The position numbers and the translations under genes were made by a program. From contig OZ020519.1 in the NCBI GenBank assembly GCA_963971425.1, forward strand, positions 12,106,028 to 12,170,027: a stretch of 64,000 nt of DNA, written 5' to 3'. The DNA comes from Bryoerythrophyllum caledonicum (lineage: Eukaryota > Streptophyta > Bryopsida > Pottiales > Pottiaceae). Below the pieces are notes generated by a model, which did no database searches, had not been told where the DNA came from, and saw only the letters and a program-made list of their open reading frames with translations. Shown one piece after another: positions 37,746-64,000 of the stretch. The stretch's first letter is position 1. Each line of letters starts with the position of its first letter.

Positions 37746-37749
37746 TATG

Positions 37750-38480
37750 GTTTGGATAGCTTGGGAGGGGGGGCGGTGTGATATGGTAGTTTAGTGTATT
37801 GTTAACATAGTTTAGTTTTGACCATTTTTTATTTCGGTTTATGGGGGTTTGTATAGGTGTTGGTGGGGTCAGTTTTGTATATAGTCTTTGTATGTTTAAA
37901 TTGTCCTTTATGGAGGTAAGTTCGGCAAGTTGTTGTAGGGAACCAAGGGTTTGATTTTGATGATGGACACATAGTATTTGTAATGTAGATGGTTCGATTC
38001 GAGGTTTTTTTAACTCGGGTGGAATATTAGGTTCTTTGTATGGTATTGAGTCTGCCTTGAATATTGCAATGATATGGGAATCTGGAAATGGGTCTGAGTG
38101 TTGGTTGTTGTTTTGGTACCACTTGTTGTTTAGTGTGATGATGATTGTACTTGTGTTATTTGGATCATGTTTGGCGGCAAGTCTAGCCCAATGTATTGCT
38201 TGTTCCATTTCCTTCTCGTTGTGGGGGTGAGCTATCCCCTTACCGGCCCATTTGTAGTCAAAGGCTTTTCCCAGGGATCCGAATATTTTGTCTCTTTCAA
38301 ATGGTGAGTAGAATTTTTTTAGTTTGGTAGAACATGTGACCGGGGAAGAAAAGTATGATTGTTCAATGTTAAAGGATGAGATTAGTGAGTCTAAGATGGG
38401 TGTGGATATTGTGTATTGCGCGTTTTTGAGGGGGTCATTTTTTGGTATTCGGTATTTATACCGTTGGTAAAGCTAGATTA
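37750..38480 (-). pseudogene. Methyltransferase-like segment between LINE RT and RNase H
   Basis: One frame, interrupted by a single TAG near 38475, reads FYSPFERDKIFGSLGKAFDY then KWAGKGIAHPHNEKEMEQAI, HWARLAAKHD, then STIIITLNNKWYQNN and SHIIAIFKADSIPY. The order (FGS-G, an NPPF-position motif, a helix, a strand ending in W/Y, a final strand) resembles PCIF1/CAPAM-type and Dam-like adenine methyltransferase modules. The NPPF position reads AHPHN, so activity is doubtful. Similarity is by eye only; a structural linker is the alternative. Confidence 0.4.
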
Positions 38481-39991: not shown

Positions 39992-40735
39992 TTAATTTTG
40001 GTGTAGTATAGGGATCGGTTGATTGCGGTAATTGATGTTGGAAGTTTGCATTAGGGCTTTGAAAGTGGTAGGGTTTAATTTGGATTTGTTGGGGCATCCG
40101 GTAGCGGCACATTTTGGGACACCTACGTCCATTCCGGTCCATTTGCAATATCTATCAATTTTATTGAGTTGTATTTGGATGGATTTAATTTTGTTAGTTA
40201 TTGCGGCGAGGTCATCCGTGTATGCGGCAAAGTTTATTGTGACTTGTGATGTGCCAAAAGTGTATCCATTGTTGCCTCGTTCTAGCCATCTGAGTAGTGG
40301 TTCTAAAAATATAATGAATAGGTATGGGCTGAGGGTATCTCCTTGAATAGTTCCCCTTTGGATGGGTATAGGTTTTGTTTTCCCGAAGTGTTCTCCGATA
40401 TAGCAAGTGGACAATTGAGAGTAAATGTTTCCAACAAGTGTAGTTGTATCTTTTGGGTAACTAAGGTTTGTCATTATTGCTAGTAGTCGGGCATGATCTA
40501 TTGAGCCACAGGCATTTTTAAAGCCAACGTATAGTATGTATATATCTTGGTTTGTAAATCTTGCGTCTTCTAGTGCGGCTATTATAGTTTGTATTTGTCT
40601 AGCGGTACTTCTTTCGGCTCTAAATCGTTCTTGACTATCATGTAGGATTCTAAATTTTTCACCATATGAGGATAGTATAGAGGTGAGTGTACTAGTGAAG
40701 AGTTTATATATTAACACGCAATTAAGCAATTATGC
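39992..40735 (-). pseudogene. LINE reverse transcriptase domain (copy A)
   Basis: The reading starts LLNCVLIYKLFTSTLTSIL, which aligns with the usual LLN-YK-FT block. It continues with QERFRAERSTARQIQTIIAA, LYVGFKNACGSIDHARLL, then QRGTIQGDTLSPYLFIIFLE and the catalytic AAYTDDLAAI. The usual box is FADD or YADD, so this YTDD carries a substitution. The fingers segment before LLN is lost at the truncation point. It is followed out of frame by the RT C-terminal part (VDTVIRPGVAYSFYGVPYF, then ILAIQKIICGLPK). Confidence 0.85.
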
Positions 40736-41299: not shown

Positions 41300-44200
41300 T
41301 TAGGGCTGCTTGCAAACGGTCATCATCGATAGCTTCGGTTTGCATTGCAATATATTGTAGGATGTGAGCCTTTGCCGATTGAAGAATGCGAATCCTGCTT
41401 TCAACCTGCACTCCAAATACATTGCACTTTCTCCACCCGTTGGCTCCGGACATGGTTCTACCGGAGAGTCTATCCATGAAAAAATGCATGCATCTTTCTC
41501 TACCCAACTATGGCTCTCCCTAGATGGCTCCCAGATTGAGTCCATGCAATTTGCATACCGTTGTGCAGAAGACCCATGTCCATCAGCAACCCCCCTTTGG
41601 ATGATGGGCCAATACCAACAAACCTTTATCTTAAGTCTCCATCGGTTTTTTCCTTCCTCAATCACTTTCCCCACATAGAATGGTACACCGCCTTCTATCT
41701 CTGCTCGATCAACACTCAAGGCTACAAATTGTCCACAACGGATATCAGATTGTGGATTAAATGGTGGAAATGGGTCATGATTACCTTCATACATTGTTCC
41801 TTCTTCGGCCCGTTCCTCAACACAGTTGCGCTCTGTTTGTTGTGCCCTACGCACTGCTTGATTAGAGGGTCTTCGTCTACGAGGACCAAAGTATCTTCGA
41901 GCCTTGGCATTTGGAAGCATGGCCACTACCTGCTCTACGACATTTATCTCGCGATTTTCTTCACTTGCACCATCCATTACATCCAAAGATGCGCTCCCTG
42001 TAGGTCCGGTGTTGGAGAACTCTGAAGGCCAAAACGGTGTGGTACGATGCTCATTGCTACGGTCTTTGTGTGGAAATTGAGCTAAATAGAGTTTCAATCT
42101 TTCAGCCTCTACTTTTGTCTCACGATTCTTGTCCTCATGCTGCAACCTTTGAATGCACCTTTGTTTATATGCAATGAAGTCATCCAATGCCTTCAACTCC
42201 CGTTCGTCCGCTGCAAATACTTCCGCAAACGATGGTCGTTCATCCCTATTTGGCAACGACCTCAAAGTTTTCGTCCCTGCCTCCGGTCCCCATGGATCCT
42301 TGCAATAATGCTTGTGTTGTACTCAAACCTCACGAGCCCCTTCTCGATTGTCCATATAGAATCGCACGTGGTGCGGAAATGTTATGCCCACCAATGAATC
42401 CTGACCTGTCAGTAAGTGAGGAGTTATGAACAATTTCCAATCCCATACATTCTCTAGCAGCCGGGCGCTAACAAATGCCTCCGTAGGAGATGTTCCTCGT
42501 TCTCTAAGACCAATCATTTCCTTCAACGAGTCCACGTCCGACCTCTTCAACGTATTTGATATACAACTGAAGCGTTGATCAATATCTTCGTGGGTATGGC
42601 CCACTATAAGAAAAGATAGTTCCACCTCCTGAAAAAACCCCAATCCCACCAATGTAGCACATAGAGCAAACATATAAATGTTTTTGTTCTCACGGGTGCA
42701 GTTGTCGGCCTGAATTCGTAGTGTTGGTGGCAAAAAGCCCCTCCTCCGCAGCGCATCTCCAATCACGTACAACAATGTACTCACGACTTGATTGCTATCG
42801 TGTTTGTGGTGAGCCCCAAACCACACGTCGCAATATAAACCAATCCCATGTACAAGAGCGCCACACAAATGGGTCTTCACAAACCGGTGTTCAATGTTCT
42901 TCACAGTCTGCCGCATCCTCGGTACCATGGTCGTGTTCTGGTCCATGCCATCCACTATGATGCACATGTACAACTCAGGGCTAATATAACACGACCTCTT
43001 GAATATCCAATAATGCCTACGTTCTTCCATCTGGTTGCGCAGATGCAACATAAACAACTCCTTTATCTTTATCCTTGCATCCGCAGGGTGGTTCCCTCCA
43101 TAGCACATTTATACTCCCAACAATGATAACACTTTGAGAATCTCGAGAATGGAGGTACCTAAACGTGGGGATACTTGATGCGCCACATCCTCCGGAACGA
43201 ACTCATAGAAATGGTTTCTCCATTACAAATTCTCTTGACCTCCTCGTTCACGTAATTGAATACATCAAATTTGGCTGTATTCATAGGAAGGAGAATGAGA
43301 GGCACCACTTCGTTGTCACTCTTACGGCGAATACAACGATGAGGTTGGAACAACCAGCTTCATCGACAAACGATTTAAAGCAAGCCTCTGCTGCAGACAT
43401 TCTAGTGCTCTCTCTGATCGGATCTGAAAGGGTATTGCCGTGAATCGATGTCACTCTTCCATATATTAGACAGTCTTTCTTCAATTGCTTAAAGCGCCTC
43501 TGTGAATATCCAACCCCAAGAGCGTAGCAAGCATTGCAAACTTCTTTCCCATCTAACTTTGTTACAAACTTGTCTCGACGAGTTCCTTCCGTCCTTGTAT
43601 AAAAAGAAACCAGCATCTGTCTCATCCACGTACTTCGAACTGAAAACTCACTACCCCATGCATTGTATCGCATGTCCAATAGATACTTTGCTGGAACGTC
43701 CCTCAAACAATTGCGTTTGCATCCTCCTTGTGCCATTGCAATTTACACGCTTCTAAGCGATACCTTAGCTGGTGCAGCTTCTGTCAATGATGGCTCCCTT
43801 GAATCTCTCCTTCTCCTATTTTGCATAGAATATGGACGACGTTCTGGTCTAACATAAGCAAATCCATCTATATGGGGCAAATCTTGGATACTCGAGGGAG
43901 TAGATTGGGAAAACGGCGAATTTTCATCTATGGCGTTTGAAGCATGACTATTGCATCGAGACCTTTGGGTGGACCCTGGTGTGTTGATGAACTCAGAAAA
44001 ATCAAATTCTGGGGCCATCACTTGTGTAGGCGCTATCTGTGATCCAATGTCACCATGGACACCTGTGATATCGGGTTCTACAGCTACTACACGTAGCAAA
44101 GACCGATGCCAACGAATGATCAAGCCCACACACATGCCAAGGCGTTCTCCTATAATCTCTCCGGTCCAATGCAATGCATCATCTACCCTAGTGATACGCA

Positions 44201-44480
44201 CCGCCACCTCGAATGGGAACAACTTCGACCCATTCAACTCCATGCCACTTTTCAATGCATGCTCCCTGGTTGCTAAGCCCACCACATCTCCTCTTTGAGA
44301 AAGCAATTCTACTACCGTTTCTAATTCAGATGTCATGATATCAACAGATCTCTGTTGAATTTGCCTTGCACGTACTGCTCGTACTAATCGGGCCCCCACA
44401 GAGCTATTGGAAAGCATATTATTCCTTTGGATGTGTGGCCGTATCGAAGGAGTCTGAATTGTGCGGCTCTCCATTATCAC
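41300..44480 (-). pseudogene. Transposase-like gene of the DUF7869 type, broken
   Basis: Minus-strand frames read in order from 44480. An N-terminal region comes first, then Cys/His clusters (GGCKRNC; CNACYALGVGYSQRRFKQLK with a later Cys; FSKCYHCWEYKC), then the core with CIIVDGMDQN, RIQADNCTRENKN and VGHTHEDIDQRFS. The three Asp-bearing motifs look like an RNase H-fold DDD/E core, as in DUF7869 proteins often tied to mobile elements. A C-terminal module follows (CGQFVALSVDRAEIEGGVPFY then VGKVIEE and KVCWYWP). I count three in-frame stops (TAA at 43743-43745, TAG at 43159-43161, TGA at 42323-42325) and about two frameshifts (near 43350 and 43085). The CAA, CAG and CGA codons expected at the stops fit C-to-T decay. 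The family name rests on memory of its motifs. Confidence 0.65.
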
Positions 44481-44692
44481 TATTCAAAAAATAGGAACAT
44501 TATGGATGCACATTAGTCAAAATACATGTACTAATTGTTAACCTTTACAGCACCATTCATCTGATAAAAGATATGTTTCTAAACACATATTTACAGTTCA
44601 AAATATGATGATGATATTGGACCTTTTGATGAAACAACTTTGAAATAAAAAAATTAAGAATTTGTAGAGCATGAACTCCTTGCACAGAGTCT

Positions 44693-47222: not shown

Positions 47223-48345
47223 CTGAGTTTGTCTAGGGTGTGGCATGCTTCTTGCCATTGTATTTGTGATAGTTGGTTGTTGTTTTCAAGAGTGTTTGTG
47301 AGAGAATCTATTTGTATGGAGTTTTCTTCAAAGAATTTTGTGTTGAAATTTTCTATATTGTCTTTTGGTATAGGATTGAGTATGTGTAATGTGTCATTGT
47401 TTGGTGTTGTGGGAGTTCTATTAATTAATGTGTTGTGTGGAATGTGCAGTCGTATGGGTGAGTGGTCCGAGTTGAGAATATCATCTTTATTTGTTGTAGA
47501 GGTGTATTGTGTATTGTTGTTTGTATTTATAAAGAATCCATCTATTAGGCTCCAATCGCTGTAATTATAGCCACCTTGTCTAGAGAATTGTGTATCGGTT
47601 TTGATGTAAATGAAGTTTAAGTTTTCTGTGAAGCGGCGCCATTGGTAATCAATGTTTTGAGGGGGGGTGTTATGATTTCCATTTTGGCGACCTATTAGTG
47701 CTATGTCTTTGTTGAAGTCTCCACATAATAGGTATGTGTGATTGGGGTTATTATTAATTTGAGATGTTATAGTGTTTTGTATGTCTATGATATATCTAGT
47801 ATCTTCGGGATGGGATGGCATGTACATATGAAAGATTAACCATGGTTGTAGTGGGTGGATAGTGATTTTGATTATTTGAATGTAAGGTGATATATGCATT
47901 GGGGTGGGAATTTTGTTGATGTTGCCCGGAAAGGCATATTTTTTTTTGTATTAATGTAAAGAGGCCACCTCGGCCTGGTGTGTATGGTCTCCATTGTTGG
48001 ATGCATCTTGTAAGTGCATGTGTATTGTTAAATATGAGCTTATAGTCTTGAAATATGTTTTGTATATATCTTGTGGATTTTATGGCAGATAATTTTGTTT
48101 CTTGTATAACTATGAGGGCTCATGGCGTGGCTTTGTGTGTGACCAAATTTTTTAAGCTAGGTAGGGCAGTGTTTAGAGAGGAGGCATTCCATGTGATTAT
48201 GGATGTATCTTCTTGATTTAGTCGGATGTTTTGATTTTGTGGAGGGATGTAGGGAGGGGGAAAAGCTCGTATGTGAGCGGTGAGCGGTGAGCGGAGAGCG
48301 GTGAGCAGAAAAAGAGAGCAAAAAATCTTACATTTCATGTGCACA
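47223..48345 (-). mobile_element. LINE endonuclease region (fragment D)
   Basis: Minus-strand translation gives an apurinic-type endonuclease. It includes SIITWNASSLNTALPSLKNL, then ALIVIQETKLSA, YTPGRGGLFTLI, LLCGDFNKDIALIG, YNYSDWSLIDGFFI and NSDHSPIRLHIP (the N, E, D-N and D-H residues of the family). One stop and a frame shift are present. It may be the 5' part of the same LINE whose 3' part ends at 40738, or a separate copy; the connecting segment is missing. Repeats of GTGAGCG (48277-48307) mark its upstream edge. Confidence 0.82.
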
Positions 48346-48353
48346 TATTGCAT

Positions 48354-49700
48354 TAAAGGGGTCCTATACTGTGGTCTTTTTTTAGTAAAATTTAAAACTA
48401 AGGTAGATATTTGCTATTTTTGGTTTAGATAGATGGTTTTTCATTTCTTCACGAGAACTTTTTAAACTTTTGAACTTTTTGAAGGCCCTTATTACCGTGG
48501 ACTAGTATTCTTAGAAAAGTTCAAATGTAGCAACTTCAAATTTGTCAATTCATATTCATAGAATTAGGGCTGACATCAGCGTGTACAAATTTATTGAACA
48601 GTGACGTCATCATTATAACATAAAAATGATACTGGATTTTTCTTAACCCCTATATGATTAAACACTCAAGGTGGGCTTTTGCAAATCTCGGACATGTTTC
48701 CATGGTTGAAATTTATAATTACAATTCTTAAAATTAAGGGATTAAAGCTACTGTGGACCTTCATAACATATTTACCGCTCTTTATCCATATTTAGATAAA
48801 CTAAATTTAAATTAGTTGGTGCTTATGATGTACATAACATTATTACTGGCATTGGGCACAACAATGTTTGACTTGGATTAATATTATGTTGTTTTTCCCT
48901 AAAGACAAGAATTGTTTTTTCCATAATATCAAAGCAAATAACACTACTTCATGGTAGCATTACATTAAGTAGTAGTGATTATCCCTAAATGACCAAGTGT
49001 CCTTTGGAGAGACAATTTTGATTTTGGGCAGGTTTCTAAAATTGGGTAAAAAAACTTCTTCTTTTCTGAAATTTTTATCTAGATTGTCCCTAATAAGATA
49101 TTTCTGAATTTTAAAAAAAAAAAATGGTTTCGTGAAATGAAATTTATTAACCTTCAAAGTCAAAATGGAGACTTTGGGCAACTCCAAATTTTTTGCTAGA
49201 AGTTTCTATTCATATTGAGATTCTTCATACATATAGAGAATATTACCTTCTTTGAAGATGTTAATAAAAGATTCTTGAATTTAGTGCATTTTTTTTTGCC
49301 CAAGTCAACCATTTTCACATATTGTCGGGCAAGGTACTTGAAAAAGTTCTTATTTTCTATGTAAACCTAGAGATCTTCATATTATTTAACTTTTTATTCT
49401 TTTTACAACATCATGTGGTGGAAACCTTCTTATTGACCATCTGGATTATCAATCTTATACATATTAAGTTCACAATAAAATATCGAGTGAATTGTCAATT
49501 TTTTAACCTCCACATCTTGAAAACTTGTTTTCAATAGTGCAAAAGAGTAGTGGTATTATGTGGTGTGAGGTCAAATAGTAGGAGAGAAAATATAGATTAG
49601 TGAGAAGAAAAAATGGAAAAAATGTTAGAATTTAGGATTTAGAATTTAGAGTTTGGAATTTAGGATTTTAGATTTACAATTTATAATTTGAAAATGTGAA
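48354..49700. other. Gene-free AT-rich stretch
   Basis: 49320-49540 resembles 11960-12130 (inverse of 45.1-45.25 kb). 49625-49690 repeats GAATTTAGGATTT-like units. No gene. Confidence 0.45.
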
Positions 49701-49705
49701 ATTAG

Positions 49706-49950
49706 AATTAGAAAAAAAGAAGATGAAGAAGAAAAAGAAGAAGATGAAGAAGAAAAACGAGAAGAAGAAAATTAGAATTAGAAGAGGAAGAATAAAAAAA
49801 ATTAAATAAAAAATTAGAATTAGAAGAAGAAGAAGAAGAAAATGAAGGAAAAGAATGAAAAGAAAAAGAAAAAGAAAAAGAAAAAGAAAAAGAAGAAAAA
49901 GAAGAAAAAGAAAAAGAAAAAGAAAAAGAAAAAGAAGAATAGAAGAAGAA
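49706..49950. repeat. Long purine tract (GAA/AAAAG)n
   Basis: About 245 bases almost purely A and G on the plus strand. The frames across it (KRKRKRK; FSFSFSF on the other strand) are artefacts of the composition. Confidence 0.9.
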
Positions 49951-49984
49951 GAGTCGTTGAAGCAAGTGGCGAAGAAGCTAGGGA

Positions 49985-50072
49985 AGTCAGGGCGCGCAAC
50001 TCAGGAATGGGAGCGGGACTTGCGTGGAGGCACAAGCCGTGGAGTCACAGGGCGCGCAACTCAGGAATGGGC
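49985..50072. repeat. Duplicated CAGGGCGCGCAACTCAGGAA unit
   Basis: Two copies about 60 bp apart, each followed by TGGG. This is the start of the GC-rich segment that carries the kinase and LRR exons. Confidence 0.7.
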
Positions 50073-50302
50073 AGCTGAAGAGGCGCGGAAGCGAGGATCG
50101 CGTGGGAACGTGGGGCGCGGCGCGGCGGTGTTGGCAAATTAGAGTGTGTGTGTACGAAGGGCTTGGCTGAAGTGAGTATGGCGGAAGTGACGAGGGCTGT
50201 GTAGGCTCCTACAAAAAGACTTAGCAAGACGGGGTTTCGAAGGATGAGGAGGCACCGTACACGCTGGCGGCCGCCTTGGGAGCTCGAACGGTGTGGTGTG
50301 TA

Positions 50303-50694
50303 GTTCGATGGCGGAAGATTGAGCTGATCGGGGCACGTATATTCCGGTTGGCTTGAAATTTCGTGTCATCCTCTAGGCCGCCTCTCTCGGCACTGTGATT
50401 GGTGAGTGCCGCTGGTTTGTTTGCCTAACTCTTGGTCGTTGTTTCGGGATGGGAGAGAGCATGTTAGGGTTGCGTCTCATTCAGGTGCAGCTGCAGTGAA
50501 ATTCGATTGACGGGGTTGTTCGTGACGGGCGTGGTGTGGTGTGTAGGTGCGTACGGCGGATGTAGATGGGTTTGAACCTAGAATCAGGGGATCTGCTTGC
50601 GGTGAAGCAGGTGTGCAACGCGCAGAACAATGTGACGAAGGACTTTGAGGCGGTCTAGGAGGCGCACATTCGTGAGTTGGACGAGGAGGTGAAG
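50303..50694 (+). pseudogene. NPK1/ANP-like MAPKKK N-lobe fragment
   Basis: Two exon-like pieces. The first (about 50303-50345) reads VRWRKIELIGARIFR, close to the RWRKGELIG-GAFG start of plant ANP/NPK1 kinase domains but with the Gly-rich loop degraded. The second (50566-50694, acceptor GTAG, donor AAG|GTGAGA) reads MGLNLESGDLLAVKQV, which carries the ATP-binding Lys, then KDFEAV, a TAG, and EAHIRELDEEVK. These kinases activate MAPK cascades in cytokinesis and stress. Nothing after helix C is present, so no catalytic loop. This is a fragment, not a gene. Confidence 0.7.
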
Positions 50695-51018
50695 GTGAGA
50701 AATATCGAAAAGTAAAATGGACTATATTCGGTAGTACACTTGGGACTGGGTTGGAACTATCGTCTCGGTTGATGTTGTGAATAGATCCAGATGAATGTTA
50801 TTGTCTCGAGTAATGTTGTGAATAGATCCAGATGGTGATCAATGAAGCTTAAGTTCGGAGAACGTTTTTGCAGATGGTGATCAATGACGATCCAGATGGC
50901 GATCAATGACTATCTTTTGAATGTTTAACTCTTATCTTCAAACAATTTTTTTCTTTTAGACCCTTGATTACAAGTGTCAGAAATTGAATACTGGAGATGC
51001 TCGACGTTTTGGTTGCAG

Positions 51019-51587
51019 CTTCGCTTTGAACTATGACGGATGCATGGCGTGGGCTTCGAGATCTCAGGCTTGAAGACTGTCAGCATATTCTTACGGAGGA
51101 CGCTTTGCGGCGCTTGCTGACATCCTTCCAAGCGTTGGAAGTGCTCCACTTGCGTCACATTGTAATTCATTTTTCTGCTGTTGTTTTTCGTGAGAGGGAA
51201 AGACAAAATTCGCACCTGGCCTACTGATGTTTTATTGAACTCTTGTTCAGGGAAAGGTGCTGCCAGAAGACTTCATAGAGAAGGCTGCCAGCAAAGTATG
51301 ATTCTTTCTTTCCCTATTGTTTTTATTTCTTTTCAATTGGTCCATATATCTAGCAATGGAGGCAAACTAACAATGGATGGGAGATGTTTTGGCAGCTTCC
51401 CCTTCTGCAAAAACTTGCTATTGACATTTGCGACTCAAAGAATGGCCAGTTTTCGAGGCCTTATGGGGTAATTGCACTATAACTATCGGGACCTGAAACG
51501 TGCATGTACTGTGTTTGTAAGGTATCCATGTTATATCGAGTTTTGATATTTTTATCACTTCCTGTGCAGGACTGGAGCACGACATGA
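51019..51587 (+). pseudogene. F-box/LRR-like 3' exons (captured or decayed)
   Basis: Four exons keep phase 0: 51019-51161, 51251-51295, 51396-51467 and 51570-51587, all with GT-AG ends. They read MTDAWRGLRDLRLEDCQHIL then TEDALRRLLTSFQALEVLHL, RHI, GKVLPEDFIEKAASK, LPLLQKLAIDICDSKNGQFS, and end DWSTT. The leucine spacing (LRDLRLEDC, LEVLHLRHI, LPLLQKLAIDIC) is that of plant F-box/LRR proteins. A TGA lies just before the first Met and no F-box exon is seen. It could be a short gene from the Met, but the neighbouring kinase fragment makes gene-fragment capture more likely. Confidence 0.6.
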
Positions 51588-51599
51588 TGTGGCCATATC

Positions 51600-53600
51600 A
51601 CCATGAATCTCAAGGAGGCGAGTCTTCGTTTTTATTGGTGACGTCGTGATTTATATTGGAGGCGAGTCTTCGTTTTTATTGGACTCTGACATCGTGATTT
51701 TTCTTCAGCAGACATCACTGTAGCACAGATTCTAGGCCTGTTGCACCTACGCATTGTGTGACACGAACGTCGATCAAAGGGAGCTTCTTTTCTAGGTCCT
51801 GCAGTTACTTGATTATTGGAGTCTGTGATGAACCCATTTGGAACCCATGAACTTGGAAATGAAATGTCGCATCGAAACTTGGAACCCTGTACTCTGGGAC
51901 TGAAACGTGGAACTTTGGATCCTGGGACTAGAACATGGAACTCACGAACCTTTGAATTACGAAAACCTGTGGGAACATGGATCTTGGACCCTAGAACTGA
52001 AACGTGGAACCATGCAGCCTGGGACTAGAACATGTCTCACGAACCTTTGGCACTCAAAAACCTGTGGGACCTAAACCTGTGGGACTTTCGAAACCTTTCT
52101 TCAAACTCATGGAACTTGGGAACTTATATTGGGGCAATTTACCCGATCCTCAAATATGCCATCGTTGATAGGCCATTGAACCTGAAACACTCTCACTACT
52201 GTGCACATTTTTGTACTTGCTATTCTATGTGGTTTATCTTTAATATTTTTTTTTTCATGATTTATCACAAGTAGGAGAAAATGCTTACGAGTGTACTGTC
52301 CTGTTGAGTGTATTGTGATGTTGCTCATTGCGAACTTACTAATGATTTATGTATTGGCAAAGCTAATTTACTTCTCAAGTTACCAATGATATATGTAATT
52401 GCAAACCGAATATACTAATGATTTATGTAGACATGTCTTGCAGCATCGGAAAATGGAGAACAGCATGTACAACATTTCTTGTATGATATGTTCTTTAGCT
52501 AGATTTAATTAGCATGTGCATAGAGTCTTCTAGTTTCCGTCAACTCTGTTCATTAAAACCATGCCAATATTTTTCCTATTATTTCCCTCTTGCGATATAT
52601 TGCATAATTGATGACTTCTGCTTGTACATTGTGCAGATTGGAGACATACTCTTTTGGACATGGGATATTTCACTCATTTATATTTATAAATTGTAAAGCA
52701 TAATGCTTAAGTAACGTTTAACAATAAAATTTACTTTACTTGGTTGGTAGAATAGATATTGAACATCCGGTTCCACAGTGGTTAGTGGGTATTATGCAAT
52801 AATTTTTTGCACAATCTGCAATCTAGGAAACTCAGTGCGCCGATGGTACCTACGCTGGGCACAGTGGCAAATCAGTCTTCGGACGTGGGGTGAAGGCCTG
52901 AGTTTTCCTAGTGCGTCGTTTGTTGCATATTTCTTTGTAATTTGAGTTGGTTCAAAACCAACACCGGGTAATGGGGATACGGTTTTTACATTTCAAAAAA
53001 AAAACAAAAAACAAAAAACAAAATTAAAAAATTAAAAAATTAAATAAAAAATTAAATAAAATCAATATGATAAAAATTAAAAAAAACACCGGAAAGTAAA
53101 TAAAGAGGGTGAAACTACGCATGCCAAAAATCCTGCAAATAATGTGTGTGGAAAGATCCACGCCAAATTTTGAATTTTTTTTCACACAAAAAGTATAACT
53201 TTTTACACTGAATCAGAACGAACAGGTGGAATGGAAGATGAGGTAAAACACTTCGGAGCTTCAAAGATATCGTCTCATTACAAGACCCGATTTTGAGGGA
53301 ATTGTGGCATCAACTATCCGAATAGGCTTTTCACCTCTCGGTAACGAGAAGTGAAGAAGGCCAACGCTCATACTACATTCTATATTATATTGAAAACAAA
53401 AACAATCAACATAGAGAAGAATAGATACATAACTTTTATGGTCCTCAAGCTTGATCATGAATTATTTTCTTGCATCATCTTAAAGAAACAAGAATATAAT
53501 GTCAAGCTAAAATTATAAACTATATTCCAATATTTTGAAGGCTTCGTTAAGGGAACAATGGAGTTTAGATATTCAAAGTGGAGTTAAATGACGACTCTAA
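51600..53600. other. Gene-free stretch with local duplications
   Basis: 51605-51690 duplicates TTATATTGGAGGCGAGTCTT. 51885-52085 holds a 97-bp tandem duplication rich in GGAACYTGGGACT motifs. 52995-53090 is A-rich. At 53270 there is GTCTCATTACAAGACCCGAT, a stray match to the repeat in the big intron of the next gene. No gene supported. Confidence 0.5.
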
Positions 53601-56600
53601 TCACTTATCAAGGACGGCATCAATTTCAAAAAGGTTTATCAGTGCGGGATCATAGAGTTGTCGATCTTTTTGTCTTGGTGGAGGGGACTTCATTGCTGCA
53701 TATATGCTTGCCATTTGCAATGCGTATTCTGGCATATATGCAAATGGAGTAGGGCTGCGTTCTATTCTTCTGTTGCGTGATATAAAAACGATAAACATTG
53801 AGCTATGTCCATTACACAAACCGCGTTGTAAATTCCGAAAGCCCGAAAATATTACTATACGAGCGATACTACTTACTCGTTCACGCTGCGCTTACGCTTC
53901 TTCACACGTCTTGAAAGGTCGACGTCCATGAAGTCTTCTTTGTCAAACTGAACGAGTGCAGGCTTGATGGGCACCTCATCTTGATCAGTGGAGGAGCTTC
54001 CTTCATGGTCGCATTCAATTTCACTTTTTAACAACAACAAAAAGGCGTTGAAAAGCTCCATTTCGGCCTCTAAAGCCACAATATGTCTTCCATATTCCTT
54101 ACAGAGCCTCACCGAGGTACCTGCGAGAAGCCAACATCAGATTGGTTGAACATGATTCTCATTACCTCGAAACACATCAATCATACTTACCAACGCCTGT
54201 TGTGGCATCGAGAACAACACCCTCGACATCGGTGGCAGATAATATTAGCGATGTTAAGAAGTGAGTCCCACGCTTCTTTGGTCCGCGCCACACTCTACCG
54301 TTTGTCGTCGTTTGAGTATCATTCGTGGTGAAATTCCAGACTGCATCCCCCTGACAGATGTCTATTGAATTTCCAGCAAGCACAGGATGGGTCCAAAAAT
54401 GAGACCGGGAAATCCGGCGAATAGTAGCGGTTGAGTCGCGCACAATTAGTGCAATCTTGAAAAGCGCCGTCAAAGCAGTCCCTGTCATTGCATATGTGTA
54501 CATTTGATTCACACCGACCCATTCCTTCTGAATCCGAAATCCGAGGAGTGGGAAGTAATTGGAGAACATCTGTTTGGTAATGCCACCATCATCGATGTAG
54601 ATTAAGAACAATGCGCCATCGTCATGTAGAAACTTGTTTGTATATGCAAACAAGTTTTTCAAGCCAGTAGGGTCAACCACGTTCCATGCGGGAACCTTGT
54701 CCGATACGCCCGGCACTGCCATGCCGTCGGGGATCTCTGCAATGACAAGGTCTATCTTCGCTTCCTTGTCAACCATCTTTCCGTCCACAATGCATTTCTT
54801 TCCGTCATTGCAATCTGCAGTAAACTCAACAATCTCCTGCCATATATCTCGGGAGATAGAGGCATTCAGAAGCAGGTTGGAAACTACACGAGGTACACTC
54901 CCAAGGGTTGGCATGCCCGTGCGGTAAGGGGTGGGATCACCTAGTGAAGCTCCAGATGCAATTGAACGAGTTGGCTCCATTGACGCCGAGATGAGTGTGC
55001 CTAGAGACTTGACCAGTTGGCGCGTCTCTCTTCGCCGGACAGGCGCTGAACACTCGGGTATCAATTCATTCACCATAACCTCTTCCTCTTGTAAATCAAG
55101 GTCCTCATTCTCTCGTTCATCCTCTCCGCCGCCTTCATTGTTCTGAATGTGGACAACCTCTTGAGAAAATGCGGTATCAATCTCCGTGGGTTCGGGTTGG
55201 CACTCTTCTTCCTCAGGTAAAGGAGACTCGCCGCGTACTTTGCATACCTTGTTTTCCGCCGCTCTCTTCAACGCATTCTTCTTTGCAACTCTATGTTCCT
55301 TGGCCTTGGCATATTGTTTCTTCTTCTTTGATTCCGGACTCAGTGGTGGTAATCTTGGCTGCCGAGAACCACGGCCTCTTCCCGCGGGCGCTACTTGCAC
55401 CGCTTCAACTTCGGGTCCAGAAAGTGGACCGAGAAAATTCTTTGAATCCAGCTCTGTGTCATAGCAGTAGTTCTTGTTACACTCAACGTACCACAAACAT
55501 TCCTTCAGATGGTCGAGGGAAAACACGGACTTGTGATATGCATTATACATGCACGTGTCTGAGTTGGCTGGATACGCAGACTTCATCCGGTCGGGTACTC
55601 TGGCAATCGCCTTCTTGCCAAACAGCTCATGGCGAATGTAGCGGTAAATGAACCACTTGGCAATATCTTTCCGGCCCTTCACGTCTTCCCACTTTGTCAA
55701 TCGGTGGAACGGTGAAGTTCCACCAAAGACACCCGAGTATGCATGCGTTCATAGCCGACATTTCCAAGTTTCCAAGTACAATGTCCATTCTTCTACTTCG
55801 ACATCTGGATTTAGGTTGAGCTGCTCCAAAACATCGTCAATGTCCTCCGCGATTTCTTCTTGAAGCTGCATTAGCAACCAATAGATTTAGCACATTCAAC
55901 CTCACATCATCATCATCATCATCACATCACATCATCACTTACAAGTGCCCAGAATACTGCTCGATTGAGGTACAACTTCATTTGAGATTCTGAACATGGT
56001 TGAGGCCAGTGCTTCTCCTTTCGGTAAAAACTGGGACTATTCCAGATTTTCAGCCACTCCACTTTATACTTTGTAGGCACGGGCGATGTCGCAATAATTT
56101 GGAGCTTCTCCAACCCCATGTCAACCTTGTCAATGTGATACTTTCTGTAGTGTAGACGAACCTGACCAATACAACAACATGAATGATAAATGTGCAAATT
56201 TTACACTAATCATTCCTTTGAGCAAGTTTTTTCTACTTCTATGCATGATGCAACATATTGGTGCACTTCATATTGGAAAACCACTTAGAAATTTCCAAAA
56301 TCACCCCTTGACATGGATCCGCCATAGGCCCTGAAATCGGGTCTCGTCACGAGACCCGATTTCCGGGTCTACGGCGCATCAATGCCCAGCTTGCTAACGG
56401 CTACAATGGCAAGCCGGTCGTTGATGCCTAGGTCACCTAAAAAGCATGTCTCATTACGAGACTTGATATCAAGGCCACCGGGTGATCAATGCCAAATTTG
56501 CCATTTGGTTCCAAGGCAAGCGGGGCATTGATGCACCGGAGGCCCTGCAAGTGGGTCTCGTTACAAGACCTATAATCAAGGCCACCTTCCATCAAGGCCG

Positions 56601-58888
56601 GGCTTGCTAATGGCTACCACAGCAAGCCGGGCATTTATGCCCTAGACGTCCCTAAAACAGGTCTCGTAACGAGACTTGATAAAAGGGTCACCGAGGCATC
56701 TATTCCAAACTTGCTATTAGGTATCACAGGGAACTTGGTATTGATGAAATGGAGGCCCATATAATGGGTCTAGTTACGAGATCCAATTTCAAGGCCTCCG
56801 GCGCATCAATACAAAGAGTACTAAAGCTGACCAAGGCTCATTATAGACTAATGCCTTGATAACCATAAATATTGGTTCTCGTAACAAACGCGTGTTTTGG
56901 GCTTCTGAGGCATCACTCTATGGGGTGCTTGCTGAACTTTAATGCCCTGATGTTTCATGGCCTGGAGGCCTTGAAAACACGTCTCGTTACATCCTCGGAT
57001 TTCAGGCCCCTGACAACCATGAATCGAAAATCATAAAAAACATCATGGCATCCCATACCATCTGGACCATGATGGGGAAGAACAATGACATTACAAAAAG
57101 ATGACAAGAAAACCATGGTTGATTTAAACCTGATCAAGGAACTCACGCCCTAGCTCAGGGTTGGCCACAGCCGCGAGCTTCCCAAAGCGCTTTTGGAGTT
57201 TCATCTTCTTGGCGGATAGTCCCTCGTCGACAAACTTCCGTAACTCCACACCGCTCTGCTTTGCCTTTTCAATCTCTAATTTGTATGCAACTCGCTCGTT
57301 TGAGGCTGCCTCTTGTATCTCTTCCTACTCCAGCATATATCACCATTAGAAATATTGAAATACTTGTTTTGTAATAGTATATATATGACACCTTACCTGG
57401 AATAAGATTTTCACCATTTGACTTGCAGGAATTGGATTCCACGCATCCCTTTGTCTCTTGAGACACTTGTTATACGCCATCTCAGGAATCAAATCCTTGA
57501 AGTATAAAATGTCTCGTTGTCCAAATATGCTCACCCTGTCCAATTCGTGCATTGTATTCGTCTTTATGTGCGCCTTCTCTGTAGCACTGTTTATCATGCA
57601 CAAACTTTCAGTCTTGATTTCAAATCCAAAAATGTGCATAATATGTAATAGACTTACTTGTTCACAACAAGCATAGCCGCAAGTATCTTCGGAAATCCAT
57701 TCGGACCAACATCAAGGATGATGCTCTCTGGTTCACCATTCTTTTGCATGAACTCCATGTCACCAGCCTTTCTTTCCTCCAAGAACTCCCTCCAAGCTTC
57801 ATAGCGGTGGTTGCCGTCGTAGATATAGAACATCTTTCCACTCAGATGCTCAAGATCTGCATCTCCCTCCAACCGTTCTTCAAAGTCTTTGTTGATTATG
57901 ATCCACTCTTCCGACCACTGCTCGACCACTGCGCTTGACACTACCATCTCCTCTCCGTAACAACATGTTAGTGCAAGATAGAAGACGGCCGTCCCGGGTC
58001 AATAACCATGCTCAAACTGGTCCATCAATCTGTGTTTGTCAGTCTCTTGTACTCTACGAAGCTCCGGCATTGGCACCATGCGGCAAAGAGGCACGCGTAA
58101 CCTGTCAAACTTCTCCTGTGGCTGTCGACGCATGTAAGTGATGGCTGCAAAGGAATCAGGGTTGTAAAGTATTCCCATCCGCTTCTCAATCTCCTTCACA
58201 TCAATCTCTTCCTCCCTGCCAAGATTGTCACCGTCTTCCTCCACCATTGCCATCTTCCGTCCCCTCCCCTTCTTCCTCTTCCCTTCAATTGGTGGGCTAC
58301 CATCTGACCCTTCCATTGAGAGATCCAAGATGGCATCCGCAGCAGCCTTGGCGCCTTCAACATCGGCGTCTGAGGCGTAGGTATGTCCACCCTCTTCCGC
58401 ACTCATCTCTTCGTCATCACCCACGATCATTTCGGCATTTTTCTCATGGCCGTCGCCGCTACCGTTGGTGCAATAGCCCTCCTCGTCCACATTCTCCATA
58501 GCCTCGTCAGCCCTCTCCTCCTGGCCAGCCGCCTAAACCAATCACACAAGGACAAAATCCGGATTATACCTATAACAAACAAGTTTCACACCCAGAAATC
58601 CAGAAAGCCTTCAAAACCCTCAGAACGCACATATCCACAAACCCTAAAACTCAAAAACCAAGATAATTGTTCAAACCCACAAATTCCTCCAAGACCGCAA
58701 AACATTTCAAACACATATAATTTCAGACCTACAAACTATCCAATCTTTTGTGAACGGACCTGTTTTTGCGACTTCTTCTTGCGAATGTTCCTCTCAGACT
58801 TCCTCACACTCTTCCTTCCGAACTTTTTGGTGATTTTGTATGAATTGACTCCACAACCTTTTACCAATCTCACATGTGTTCCCCTCAT
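53601..58888 (-). CDS. ParB-like domain fused to N4/N6 DNA methyltransferase, 8 exons, two in-frame UGA
   Basis: Exons: 58760-58888, 57658-58532, 57397-57586, 57130-57324, 55943-56161, 54191-55865, 53877-54120, 53601-53769. All seven introns are GT-AG and in phase, giving about 1231 codons. The first Met follows an in-frame stop. Residues 1-43 are very basic, likely a nuclear signal. The ParB-like domain spans about 190-330 (VPLCRMVPMPELRRV; DGNHRYEAW near 281). After a helical region and an acidic/basic linker comes the methylase: KIDLVIAEIPDG near 908 (motif IV), LHDDGALFLIYIDDGG, WRGPKKRGTHFLTSL, LDATTGVGGTSVRL then CKEYGRHIVALEAEM near 1088 (motif I). Motif IV before I is the beta-class order. 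EIPD replaces the usual (D/N/S)PP(Y/F/W), so activity is doubtful. UGA codons at 57999-58001 and 55749-55751 suggest recent decay or read-through. Confidence 0.8.
56335..57000. repeat. 107-bp tandem array with embedded palindrome, inside an intron
   Basis: GTCTCGTTACGAGAC-type palindromes start at 56341, 56448, 56555, 56661, 56768, 56875 and 56981, at 106-107 bp spacing. Between them lie diverged copies of CAAGGCCACCGG.. GCATCAATGCC.. GCTTGCTAATGGCTAC. The array nearly fills the 967-bp intron (56162-57129) of the ParB-methylase gene. Confidence 0.9.
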
Positions 58889-59048
58889 GGCAATGCGCTC
58901 AACTTAATGACCAGCATACAAGCAACACTACAAAGTGATAGCACTAACTCGACCCAGAAATTCTATCCACCACATGAAAAGGAAAGGAGTTCAGTTTGGC
59001 CTCCACCCCTCTCTTTATTGTGAGAAATTGGTGACATGGCAACCGCGA
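58889..59048. other. Short spacer upstream of the ParB-methylase gene
   Basis: This 160-base spacer separates the 3' end of the small minus-strand ORF from the start codon of the methylase gene. I see no clear TATA box. Confidence 0.4.
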
Positions 59049-59461
59049 CTAATCATCATTATTTAACACCTTGACTTCTAGAAGGCGGCTTTTCATTTTC
59101 TACATCCTTGTAGCTCCAAATCAGAACCCACTAGAGGACACATTAGAAGAAAAAATACTTGAATGTCTGTTAAGCCGGATGGCTCGAAAGCTACTTCAGC
59201 CTCCCTAGCGACGCACTCTATTGTAAGTTCTCCAATCACTTCCAATGGCGACATGTCAACTAATACTAGTACCTCTTCTTCGAGGATGGGAGTTGTTGGT
59301 GAAATCCGTCTAGCCACTGTTGTTGCAGGTAACTTAGCAAACTCTCCACCTAGGCGCCTCTTCGTCACCCCAACGTCTGCGGGCATTTTGCAAATCTCCT
59401 TTCCCTTGCGCCCCCGTCTTGCACGCGTGATCGCATCGCATTCCTCCTCGCGCAGATCCAT
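59049..59461 (-). CDS. Small unrecognised protein between methylase and transposase
   Basis: From 59461 the frame reads MDLREEECDAITRARRGRKG then EFAKLPATTVARRI, EEEVLVLVDMSPLEVIGELT and IECVAREAEVAFEPSGLTDI. It can continue two ways. It may read straight to a stop at 59093 (122 residues). Or it may use a 59-bp GT-AG intron (59100-59158) to reach KMKSRLLEVKVLNNDD and a stop at 59049 (117 residues). Codon character is good and there is no internal stop. I know no family for it. Its place between a methylase and a transposase suggests an accessory protein of one mobile element, but that is inference. Confidence 0.5.
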
Positions 59462-60302
59462 TTGAAAGAGAGGCTACTTACGGTCTGATGTCCACCCTTT
59501 CTACTAATTCGATATATCTAGGGGCTATCTCATTCCATTCTACATTCAAACCTTGTTCCCTATAACATCCTCCATCTGCCTATGTACGCATCTATTTTAA
59601 GTCCAAAAGATCTGTCCACTGACCTTTCCACTGACGATTTGTTCTATCTTTACAATTAGCTTACTGTTGAGAATCCTACAAGGATTTTATATGAATTTAT
59701 AATTCTTGGTAGTATTATTTTCTTAACTAAGTAGAGACTTGCCCCGCTTCCCTACCTCATTTCAACCGATACTTCCCAAATATGAAAATCCGTCCAAGCA
59801 AGGACTGTCTAATTCTTGAATGCGGAAGGCTGCTTTGCACCTTCTTCATCAGCATTCTACTTAAGTCCAAAAGATTTGTTCACTAACCTTCCCACTGACG
59901 AATTGTTATATCTTTAAAATTAGGTGACTGCTGAGAATCCTACAAGGAGTGGAGATTTGCGCCGCTTTCCTCCCTCCTTTATAGCAAGACTTTCCAATTA
60001 TGAATATCCATCTGAGCAAGGACTGTCTAATTCTTAAATGCGGACGGCTACTTTACACCTCCCTAGGCATCCATTGAAAGAATAATGATTGTTTTGAATT
60101 ATATTCATGGTTACATTCCAAACTTCATTTTAGATCCCTTCTTCTAGCCCTCGCAAACGCTCTTTTTCAACGATCACCCTTTTAATATCCAATGGCTCCT
60201 TCTCTCTTAAAATATCTTAATGTAATACATATATTGACCTTCCATCTCCATATTCCAATACCCTTCTAGAGTTTAATCTCACTCACCTGTCTCGATATTC
60301 TC
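59462..60302. promoter_or_regulatory. Divergent spacer with about 274-bp tandem duplication
   Basis: Between the minus-strand small ORF and the plus-strand transposase. A segment starting TTAAGTCCAAAAGATYTGTYC (last base varied) occurs near 59598 and 59872. Both copies contain CTGAGAATCCTACAAGGA-like and AAGGACTGTCTAATTCTTRA blocks. As the only spacer between the two divergent frames it should hold both promoters. Confidence 0.6.
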
Positions 60303-63300
60303 ATGACTTCCTCCTCTCCGTCTACTTTTCCCGCCATGGTTATGCTCCGTGCTAATGGCATTGGCGATCCTGTTGCGTATCCTTTGAGTGATCAAGGGTT
60401 TGCAACAGTTACCAGTGCGGCCTTAAGTGTTCGATTTTCTTTTCAACAGCAGAGTATATGTGTCGAGGAGGAAGTCTACGATGATGACTGTTTGAAGCTG
60501 TTGTATACCACACCTCGACAAACGGTAGTGAATGAGAGTTTTGACAAAGAGTGGAAACTTGGAAAAGACCAATATAGGGTCTATGGTCGCCTAGATTCAC
60601 AGTTAAGTGCGTCCTCTATCGACCTTACTTCTCGTCTGTCCACAACATGTAGTATGCAGACATTGCTTCCTGCTCTCGTCAATGTTAAGATCGAACCAGA
60701 CACTGAGCCTATCATCGTACTCTCATCCGACAATGAAGACACCCCTCCTAAGACTTGCCCTCCAAAGCTAAGTGTTCCTAAGCCGTGTCGTCCTAGAGCC
60801 ACTTCTTTTACATCTACTCCACCGATATCATGTCCCCCCATGTCTTGCTCTCCGAAACAGGACAAGGTACTTGGTATCGTCAGTGTTATTGCAGGTCTCA
60901 AGCGGTTGTCTTCTCGTGTTGGCGGCAAGAATCCATTGAAGAAATTGGACTTTGACATCATACCACACGAGTAGGTCAACTGTCTTCCCGCCGATTTCAA
61001 TGGCAATGTGATATTCGAACTTCCACCCGCTCCACCATCAGCGTCATCTACACAGGCTCGTAACATGCATGGCATGGACAAGCGGTACGATGGTCACCTC
61101 TGGACTAAGACAATCACGACAAACATCATGAATGACGATGGCCTCCACTTTCGTACATCCAAATGCGTTGGGCACCTGCGTTGCAAGAACGTCGACTGCG
61201 CGGTCGTTCAACGAGATAATCGTATTTCGGAAGTGAACAAGCGGGAGTTTGATGGAATGACATCGATGACATGTGAGGTAGGTCAGAAAGCTCCCAAAAA
61301 CACGCTACTTTGCAAGATCTGTGGAGAGCCACCAATGTGTATTGCCACGTGTGATGCTGTAGTGTATTATGTCAGTGGTAAGCGCCACTGCACTTGCGCT
61401 TGTATCCACCTTGGTAGACATATGCATCCTGTTAAGACTGGTGCCTATCGTGAGGTGAAAGATAAGATCAATAGTCTAATAAGTGAGCAAGTAGAGAGAA
61501 CTCCATGAACGACTAAGAGTGCCATTGTGTTAGAAGCTAGCAAAGAACCCCTTGGAGAGTTCCTGTTGAGTGAAGAGGGTGAACCGCGGAAGATCCTCAG
61601 TGTCGATGAGTTAGCCCCAATGCTAGATAAATGCAAAGACATGGGATCCCCTGGCATTCGAAACAAGGTGGTAACGTTTCAGTACCTTAAGAGGTACGGT
61701 GTCATGGACGCTATCCTTAAACTTAGGTCAATGAGTAACTGGGCGTTTGTACAAAATAACAAATTCCCGAGTCAAGGTTTAGAAGCGGCTGTAGGAGGAG
61801 AAGCCAAAGTCTTTGTCTTCAAGATGTCCGAAGTTGGACCAGGCTCGGGCATTGACCTTGTAAAGCGGATGCAGCCGGGCTATGATCTGGAGAATGCATG
61901 GTTGATGTTCGACCACGTCAAACGCCTAATGGATTGGACAACCATGTTTGTCATGTTTATGACACAACATATTGCAGGGTGATGACCACTGCATGCTGCG
62001 ACATGATGTCAGAGGATAAAGACGCGCAGATACTATTCTAGGAAAACCTAAATGACGTGATGGGACGACATGGTGTGGCAAGTCTGACCTTCAAAGGATT
62101 CATGGCGGACAGTGCTCAGGCAAACTAGAATGCGGTGAGAGCTGTATATGGAGGCGGAGAAGCCATGGTGGACAAGGAGCGAACATGTCTTTTTCATTGG
62201 GCACAAAGTATGATCAAGTGTACAGAGAAGTGCATTGCCGAAGGATTTCAAGAGCAACATAAGAGACTGTGTAACCAATACAGGAAGGCAACCACCATGG
62301 AGGATGCCGATAGACTATACGACGCGCTTCAAGCATGGTATAGGATATCCGGAGCTGTTTCCGAAAAGGGTTTCGAAAAAATCACTAGTTGGCTTGGATT
62401 CTCGCACTTTCGTTACCATCAATGGGGTGGATTTATAACTACGGTACTGCTCATCTTTCGGATCTGTATGTTGTCTTGCGTCCCTATATGATGTGATTGA
62501 TACCCTAGGTCCATGAGGTTTAGCTTTTCATGTGTTGTTACAGACATGGGTTTTTCTGACTGGTCACCTGGCTTTTTAATTCTTGATTTCTCACATTGTT
62601 GTTGTTCTTTTGCAGAACATGACCGCCAATGAATTGGCCGAAGTGCCTTCATGCAATCTAGCCGAGACCATTGACAACAAATGGAAGCAAGCCTCAGGGA
62701 ATAGAAGTCCCGACTTATACGTCGCAACCGTCGACGACTATGTGCGTGCATTCCTGCAGGTTGTGAACTATTATCAATTCCTCAAGGGTAATGTAGGTGG
62801 AACGGGGCCTAGCAAGGAAGAGCTAAAGCTCCGGGAAGCTGAGAGAAGAGCTCAAAGGACTGGCGATCCTAGTGTGCTCAAGGAGTCTATGCTAGGTATG
62901 CCAGGGGCGGTAGAATTCTGTATCCGCACAACAAACAAGGCCGGCGAAGAGGTTTTTGGTTCACGCAAGCGCAAAGCAAACGTGCCATTTGGTGCCGAGG
63001 AGGAATCTCATCAACCGGATAAGGTCAACTTCTCTTATCCCCGCTATACTTCCAAAGGCGTGGGGACTACCCTAAACCCTCTTCCCATCATCGATGAAGA
63101 TAACGGCGTCCGTGTTGACCTAGGCATCTCTAATGATGATCTATCTCCGACACAACAAGCACAAGTGACACCATTGTTGTCTCTAATTCAAAGGATTGGA
63201 CTACGCCGTGTCACAGCAGTTCAAGAGACCCATGTTGCATTGACGGAGTGGCACATTGCTCGGTTGCCAAAGAACTCAGCAAAGGCTTGTTGGGCACAAC

Positions 63301-64000
63301 GGGCAGTTACAAAGAAGAAATGCGAGGAGAGGATTGTGAGACGTGGAATAGCAACTCCGGCACCAACATACAGTGGTTTTTATCGACACCCAAAGAAGAC
63401 TGTCTTGGAGCCCACTGAATTCTACTTCTGCAACGATGACATTGATAGGTGTGTGAAGGGTACAAGGGGTAGGTGGGTGGTTCAATATAAGAAGAATCAG
63501 GATAGGCCTCCTATCCCCAACGTATGGCCTGTTGTGGTGGGTACTAATCTTACACGTGGAGAGGTTGAGGATCTCGAGGTGGCTGGATTTCAACTCCCTC
63601 AAAGGCAGCACGTTCCTCCAAGTTGATTGTTTTCCAAGGATCGGCCACCAAAAGACTTGAGTTCGATCCCTGTGCCCCTTGACGCTGCCAAAGTTCCTTG
63701 CAAGAGGGATGGAAAGGGGGTGAAGCGCACCTCCAAGGCTGGCAACGAGAAACAAAGAAAGTCAATGGGGTCCGTTGACTCCCTCACGGCGTCCATTAAG
63801 TCCGTCAGAATGCTGCCATGTCCTGGGTTGGGGTGTCACATTTCCCTTGTTTCTCTTGGTATCCCACCCGAAATAGTAACCTATTCCGTTACAGTGAGTT
63901 CATTCCCCCATTGTTCATGTCCTTCGTACAAGAAGACGTCAAAGACATTTAGGGGGAGGAACCAATATTCTCATTGCAAACATCTCTATTTCATCCTCTT
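60303..64000 (+). pseudogene. MULE-type transposase with GCM-like Cys/His cluster and SWIM finger
   Basis: Reading runs 60303-62443, a 172-bp GT-AG intron, then 62616 to beyond the window. The N-terminal ~235 codons are Pro/Ser-rich. A Cys/His cluster follows (KCVGHLRCKNVDC, LCKICGEPPMC, HCTCACIHLGRHMHPV) like WRKY/GCM/FLYWCH-type fingers of transposases. The core has TTACCDMMSEDKDAQ (first Asp), FKGFMADSAQAN (second Asp), ERTCLFHWAQSMIKC and WLGFSHFRYHQWGGF. After the intron come CNLAETIDNKWKQASGNRSP and GTGPSKEELKLREAERRAQR. FPHCSCPSY and SHCKHLYFIL at 63906-63999 form a SWIM finger, as in MuDR-type transposases. Five in-frame stops (60972, 61506, 62039, 62126, 63624) and one single-base loss near 61981 break it. 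The lost codons look like CAG, CGA, TGG, TGG and CGA. The 3' end lies outside the window. Confidence 0.82.
62444..62615 (+). other. Phase-0 intron in the MULE transposase
   Basis: Donor ACG|GTACTG and acceptor TTTTGCAG|AACATG with a preceding T-rich tract. Removing it joins HQWGGFITT to NMTANELAEVPSCNLAE in frame. Without it the frames on the two sides do not agree. Confidence 0.75.

Follow-up and report, generated by a model that had tools for sequence, protein, structure and literature searches.

Genes that join a ParB-like domain to a DNA methyltransferase (MTase) domain have been reported from transposons of brown, red and green algae (PMC12477816, in which the green and red algal proteins are credited to Iyer 2011 and Petroll 2025). 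The Ectocarpus element Sola1-1_Ec32, described in that paper, carries an accessory gene for a ParB-like domain together with an N4/N6 methyltransferase predicted to make N4-methylcytosine (4mC) or N6-methyladenine (6mA), and fusions of a ParB fold with N6_N4_Mtase occur in phages (PMC12704722). The algal proteins have so far been read as enzymes that possibly modify their own element. Here we analyse a gene family of this kind in the moss Bryoerythrophyllum caledonicum, taking as our starting point a stretch of 64,000 nucleotides from contig OZ020519.1 (hereafter the window). An eight-exon gene on its minus strand – the ParB/MTase-like gene – is the second (accessory) gene of a roughly 16-kb terminal-inverted-repeat DNA transposon, and is divergent from the transposase gene.

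Judged by the description in PMC12477816, the moss locus is like Sola1-1_Ec32 in its pair of domains, in having the gene on the strand opposite to the transposase, and in belonging to a large DNA transposon; the proteins are 1104 (Ectocarpus) and 1231 (moss) amino acids long. Sola1-1_Ec32 is a Sola-1 element of 21.5 kb, whereas the moss element has 10-bp target duplications and a transposase without a Pfam match, and while the Ectocarpus MTase is predicted to be active, the moss copies compared all lack the catalytic motif (a comparison by description only). The phage fusions share the domain pair and the mobile-element setting, with phages and prokaryotes as hosts; the accessible text of PMC12704722 mentions neither loss of motif IV nor palindromes within the gene. 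A small aimed search of the literature, mostly outside subscription papers, found no report of either feature in ParB-methylase genes. The kind of gene is already known: what is new here is a variant in which motif IV is missing and an array of palindromes occupies an intron. We consider it rather probable that the product is an accessory DNA-binding protein with a non-catalytic methylase fold and, one step further, that it attaches to palindromes belonging to the gene that encodes it.

The joined exons give one frame of 3,696 bp (1,231 codons plus stop) on the minus strand between 53601 and 58888, with GT..AG at all introns; the other two frames contain 56 and 70 stops. Matches to the exon-6 frame number at least 86 segments in the 437 Mb assembly, some of them split pieces or on probable duplicate contigs (C361, C380): 19 (window included) are 88–100% identical, and further groups stand at 52–55% and 35–50%. 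Ten of the 18 other copies at 88–92% identity (near copies) were fetched, as were 12 more distant segments (divergent copies), six of which include intron 4; two alignments, A1 and A2, hold six and five of the available subfamily sequences. All eight exons are kept in all ten near copies with lengths equal modulo 3, which is far beyond chance, and exons are more alike than introns (96.6% vs 95.1% identity): together these observations support the splice chain without transcripts. The gene is real. An earlier first-pass annotation of the window, made from the letters alone, had proposed the eight exons with consistent splice signals and phases, and the motifs DGNHRYEAW, DLVIAEIPDG and LDATTGVG..GRHIVALEAE; exons and motifs were recovered as described, and the paralogues that it thought worth seeking in the same genome exist in the number just given. 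It reported neither the multi-copy transposon setting nor two TGA codons (residues 221 and 575) that break the frame of the window copy. Because of these codons the window copy encodes no full-length protein: it is a dead copy, and relatives with open frames exist. Eight of the ten near copies have no internal stop (the exceptions are cpG, at residue 43, and cpI, at residues 221 and 409), and two, cpB and cpJ, have one changed splice site each. No homologue was found outside the genome among approximately 5.8 billion proteins (searched at E 1e-3 and E 1, with the roughly 8000 best word-sharing candidates scored each time), nor in viral contigs.

The alignment between the window and the copies breaks off sharply on both sides, at 48258 (left) and at window-coordinate 64751 (right). 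The element terminates in GGGAAAAGCTCGTATGTGAGCGG and GAGGGAGGCTTGTTCATGAGCGG (reverse strand), which form an imperfect inverted repeat and lead into 7-bp (T/A)GAGCGG repeats; these ends were found through comparison of copies, and are absent among the 25 of 166 inverted repeats listed by a generic search (the right end lies outside the window). Five other copies measure 16.1–16.5 kb from end to end. Target duplications of 10 bp are perfect in seven of the 11 copies compared (A, B, C, D, H, I and J) and agree at nine of ten bases in copy E. The left-end 21-mer has 143 matches in the genome (≤2 mismatches), compared to none for a reversed control. Linkage between gene and terminus was evaluated for 82 of the 86 segments (second pieces of split matches dropped) and 100 of the 143 termini: 44 of the 82 have a correctly oriented left terminus 3.7–12.4 kb downstream, against a mean of 0.15 and a maximum of 2 under random placement (short contigs left out and the size of contig C9 assumed). 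About half of the 100 termini lack a listed gene segment nearby, and non-autonomous derivatives of the element are therefore probable. The part from 53239 to 64751 is common to the window and copies A, C, E and I; to its left, these copies carry another arm (window 48258-53238) and a variant left terminus, GAGAAATGCTCATTCGTGAGC. The different left arms reflect arm swapping between subfamilies.

The partner gene is itself broken in the window, with stops at 60972-60974 and 61506-61508, a frame change near 61.95 kb and a probable intron (placed by eye) at about 62444-62615; in cpB and cpD, the two copies inspected, an uninterrupted frame of 740 codons and a second exon occupy this stretch. Neither exon has a Pfam match at E ≤10. 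A zinc-finger-like cysteine cluster is discernible by eye, as are the residues D, D, CxxH and E that characterize DDE transposases; taken with the 10-bp duplications, these features suggest a resemblance to Mutator-like elements. Both divergent copies tested have a relative of this transposase (76% and 53% identical) head-to-head with the ParB/MTase-like gene. Within the 52–55% subfamily (L042/L053, C12) the transposase is 76% identical and the ParB/MTase-like protein about 48–55%, which suggests that the accessory protein is the faster-evolving of the two.

The gene family is under purifying selection. The ratio of the proportions of nonsynonymous and synonymous differences (pN/pS) was calculated for six of the ten near copies – G and I being dropped for internal stops, B and J for one changed splice site – and is 0.27 overall, 0.16 in the ParB region, 0.12 from exon 5 to the middle region and 0.26 in the MTase-like part; looser values characterize the charged N-terminus (0.69), the middle linker (0.53) and the C-tail (0.42). 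Between subfamilies silent sites are saturated (pS 0.72–0.86), and nonsynonymous divergence (dN) of the MTase-like part is 0.28–0.46. Comparison of the window copy with the clean copies gives a dN/dS (nonsynonymous to synonymous divergence) of 0.38–0.47, which fits a copy that has been dead since not long ago.

All six subfamily members match N6_N4_Mtase (PF01555; best E 2.4e-6, with one member shown scoring 26.0 bits against a cut-off of 26.7). A profile search of the Protein Data Bank (PDB) aligned residues 53-251 of CcrM with positions 35-242 of the 252 in the query (E 0.0089; best domain 0.062), and three non-CcrM chains among 6pbd, 5hek/5hfj and 1g60 gave weak matches to the C-terminal part (E 0.19–0.41). 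The beta-class adenine methylases represented by these structures (CcrM, DpnA and MboIIA) have DPPY at motif IV; the moss proteins, in contrast, have (E/Q)(I/V)xD and have partly lost motif I. Alignment to five phage methylases with hhalign gave 95.3% in local mode, confined to about 59 columns around motif I, and 96.5% when run globally, compared to 0.1% for controls (the reversed family, and ParB). Motifs follow in the order IV ... I: global hhalign places DLIIAEVPDN on the phage DPPYG stretch and VVDxTAGVG on VLDFTMGSG. The place of motif IV reads (E/Q)(I/V)(P/S/R)D in all 23 copies compared (11 near, window included, and 12 divergent), the fourth residue being always D and never aromatic. 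A direct search of the translations of these 23, which needs no alignment, found no [DNS]xP[YFW] tetrapeptide; for six of the 12 divergent copies the translation covers the C-terminal half only. With the catalytic motif absent in every copy compared, a DNA-modifying role is unsupported, and DNA binding or scaffolding appears more likely than DNA modification; since the domain has long been kept without that motif, it is best read as a putative pseudo-enzyme.

Five palindromes GTCTCGTNACGAGAC (≤2 mismatches), with the core TCTCG..CGAGA, lie in intron 4 of the window copy at a spacing of 106–107 bp, and five (≤3 mismatches) are found at the same spacing in intron 4 of all 11 near copies, window included. 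The whole window contains six matches (≤3 mismatches) compared to 1.03 expected, and none of 100 shuffles had as many. The exact near-family 17-mer occurs at five places in the genome, all of them by position in intron 4 of near copies (four of the five copies inspected). Intron 4 of the divergent copies is of other sequence, yet palindromes with the TCTCG..CGAGA core are present in six of six and form arrays in five of six, with periods of 106–140 bp: in these six copies, 6.9 kb of intron 4 contain 30 exact cores, and the other 30.9 kb of sequence available contain none. One of them, d31, has one exact core and three close variants 106 bp apart. Outer and inner bases of the palindrome vary symmetrically between subfamilies, and in all six arrays measured the central 17 bp are more alike between units than are the flanks (0.81–0.99 vs 0.52–0.87, ungapped); the array of d36 is nearly homogeneous. 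The form of the palindrome typical of the divergent subfamily occurs at 151 places in the genome. The 50 of these that were listed fall into 25 loci, and 18 of the 25 have a gene segment or a left terminus nearby, compared to a random mean of 0.25. Six listed loci are near left termini that lack a listed gene segment.

At the N-terminal side, the DGNHR box is present in all 11 near copies and in all six divergent copies for which exon 2 was available; we take a DGxHR-type box to be a mark of the ParB/sulfiredoxin fold. The stretch RIPLCRMLPMQELR... that precedes it resembles, by eye, the ParB N-terminal box. Profile matches were obtained to DUF1015 in two of five members (best E 7.6e-4) and to DndB in one of five (E 0.085), and Pfam scans of the pieces scanned found no helix-turn-helix family. 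Support for a ParB-like nature of this domain is modest.

These features can be brought together as follows. The product would be a transposon accessory protein that binds DNA of the element through its ParB-like domain, the methylase fold serving as a non-catalytic scaffold for DNA or cofactor binding, and would help the transposition of the element, its expression or its escape from silencing. Its sites would be the intron-4 palindromes and the one next to the 3' end of the gene, and recognition would be dimeric. Bacterial ParB loads on parS, clustered palindromes near its own gene; the moss locus is alike in having a ParB-like domain and clustered palindromes near the gene, a likeness drawn without comparison to parS sequences. 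Should the analogy extend further, the moss protein could load on its own gene in much the same manner, and the intron-4 array may be a putative parS-like binding array. The fullest version of this idea – a self-contained ParB/parS-like module of ParB-like protein, dead methylase fold and loading array in its own intron, whose complex marks, clusters or shields the element without chemical modification – strikes us as rather unlikely. A family in which silent sites are saturated between subfamilies, the catalytic signature is absent from all copies compared and selection persists shifts the question from which base is methylated to what the protein binds. The intron array is a concrete candidate for the binding site; if true, it would be an unusual partition-like site within an intron.

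Several results weigh against this explanation as a whole. ParB membership depends on a short box and sub-threshold profile matches; the profile search returned no ParB-type PDB match, and the ParB domain has no match among phages. Single-sequence structure models, a check proposed in the first-pass annotation, are too poor to be of use (mean pLDDT 30.6 and 34.5, the latter for the ParB side). The local profile alignment spans only the motif I half of the MTase-like domain, and placement of motif IV needs global mode. The divergent copy d30 has a single exact core and no excess of palindromes over shuffles, and seven of the 25 listed palindrome loci have no gene segment and no listed terminus nearby. 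Among the 11 copies compared for target duplications, the window copy, cpF and cpG have none. Finally, units of the d37/d39 arrays are palindromes of about 91 bp (89% paired over 45 pairs) with covariation between the arms, so hairpin RNA or mutation by palindrome mending could explain the array.

If the array is an RNA feature, intron hairpins would affect splicing or feed small-RNA pathways and have no link to the ParB-like domain. Intron 4 folds as RNA with a z of -12.8 relative to 20 shuffles, and among 11 d37/d39 units 33 cells are changed on both sides, compared to 16.1 in shuffled data (no shuffle of 500 as high). Against this, the number of pair types is not above that in shuffles (170/500), the near family (71% pairing) shows no covariation beyond shuffles, the 17-bp centre is better conserved than its flanks in every array measured, and an isolated core is found 3' of the gene as well; we regard an RNA role as somewhat unlikely. 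The array might instead be a plain intronic tandem repeat, its palindromes kept by template-switch mending – a known process at quasi-palindromes – and by unequal crossing-over. Regular periods of 106–140 bp and the near homogeneity of the d36 array are what such a repeat would give, but the same intron and core are retained in six of six divergent copies despite saturated synonymous sites, and from one subfamily to another it is the flanks of the units that change, not the core. This explanation we judge unlikely.

Other alternatives concern the protein. It could be an active DNA methyltransferase with an unusual motif IV, attaching to the transposon that encodes it and placing 4mC or 6mA there; this is what has been proposed for the Sola1-1 protein of Ectocarpus. 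The N6_N4_Mtase matches and purifying selection would fit, as would the invariance, in A1, of the E in GR.IVALE and of the last G of motif I; moreover, two of five phage relatives have DLPY or DLPF, implying that position 2 of motif IV is tolerant. However, it is the first (E/Q) and fourth (D) residues that depart in all 23 moss copies compared, which have no [DNS]xP[YFW] elsewhere, and three of the six A1 sequences no longer have the first G of GxG in motif I (two NVG, one ATG; the remaining three are GVG). Loss of DPPY generally means loss of activity, and we hold an active enzyme to be quite unlikely. A single bacterial or phage methylase, captured and kept for the plant's own use, could account for the introns and the purifying selection; it is extremely improbable in view of the dispersed segments, shared termini, target duplications and linked transposase, and for this locus copy number and element structure lead us to reject it. 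The first-pass annotation had envisaged a bacterial or phage-type DNA modifier taken up by this lineage and given introns. The domain types, the introns and the mobile-element setting are supported; the modifying activity, given motif IV, and the single captured gene are not. Likewise its assignment of the two domains fares unequally in profile searches of the translation, the N6_N4_Mtase side matching in all members and the ParB side (DUF1015) more weakly. Coordinates of the element and its parts are collected in Table 1.

Table 1. Features of the transposon copy in the window (window coordinates).
Feature	Coordinates	Strand	Basis
DNA transposon, window copy, 16,494 bp; right end at window-coordinate 64751, 751 bp beyond the window	48258..64000	.	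alignment to ten near copies
Left terminal repeat, matching the right end imperfectly in inverted orientation; (T/A)GAGCGG repeats of 7 bp begin here (run at 48273-48306)	48258..48278	+	copy comparison
Outlying palindrome, 3' of the gene, with 2 mismatches (none in the six other elements scanned)	53272..53286	.	
Exon 8 and stop	53601..53769	-	splice joining, copy comparison
Exon 7: remainder of motif I, GRHIVALEAE	53877..54120	-	splice joining, copies
Exon 6: middle region; MTase-like domain including the first half of motif I and, at the motif IV position, AEIPDG	54191..55865	-	joining, genome matches
TGA in exon 6, residue 575	55749..55751	-	absent in 10/10 near copies
Exon 5	55943..56161	-	splice joining, copy comparison
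Intron 4, 968 bp, with palindrome array	56162..57129	-	copies, palindrome scan, RNA folding
Palindrome 1, GTCTCGTCACGAGAC, 0 mismatches	56341..56355	.	palindrome scan; array in 10/10 near copies
Palindrome 2, 1 mismatch	56448..56462	.	palindrome scan, near copies
Palindrome 3, 1 mismatch	56555..56569	.	palindrome scan, near copies
Palindrome 4, 0 mismatches	56661..56675	.	palindrome scan, near copies
Palindrome 5, 2 mismatches	56768..56782	.	palindrome scan, near copies
Exon 4	57130..57324	-	splice joining, copy comparison
Exon 3	57397..57586	-	splice joining, copy comparison
Exon 2: charged N-terminus, ParB-like domain with DGNHRYEAW	57658..58532	-	joining, copies, profiles
TGA in exon 2, residue 221	57999..58001	-	absent in 9/10 near copies; common to cpI
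Exon 1 of the ParB/MTase-like gene	58760..58888	-	splice joining, copy comparison
Broken DDE-type transposase gene, head-to-head with the ParB/MTase-like gene	60304..63626	+	frames here, open in cpB, cpD

Other features were noted elsewhere in the window. Three consecutive open frames on the minus strand at 41303-44483, the middle one (42326-43108) matching DUF7869 (E 4.6e-49), are perhaps another mobile element adjoining the ParB transposon; the DUF7869 gene (41.3–44.5 kb) was considered as the transposase and rejected, since it lies outside the left end of the element (48258). A LINE-like (long interspersed nuclear element) open reading frame with RNase H is present at 36952-38472 (minus strand), with a reverse transcriptase upstream of it at 39995-40729; the same frame has a further match, to PCIF1_WW (PF12237, E 3.6e-9, 36.9 bits with the cut-off at 31.1), a family named after the mRNA-cap methyltransferase PCIF1. 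The sole host-type gene noticed in the window is an EXORDIUM-like gene at 984-2393 on the minus strand (Phi_1, PF04674, E 2.1e-105), which points to a streptophyte host; trinucleotide and 54-bp repeats lie close to the start of this gene.

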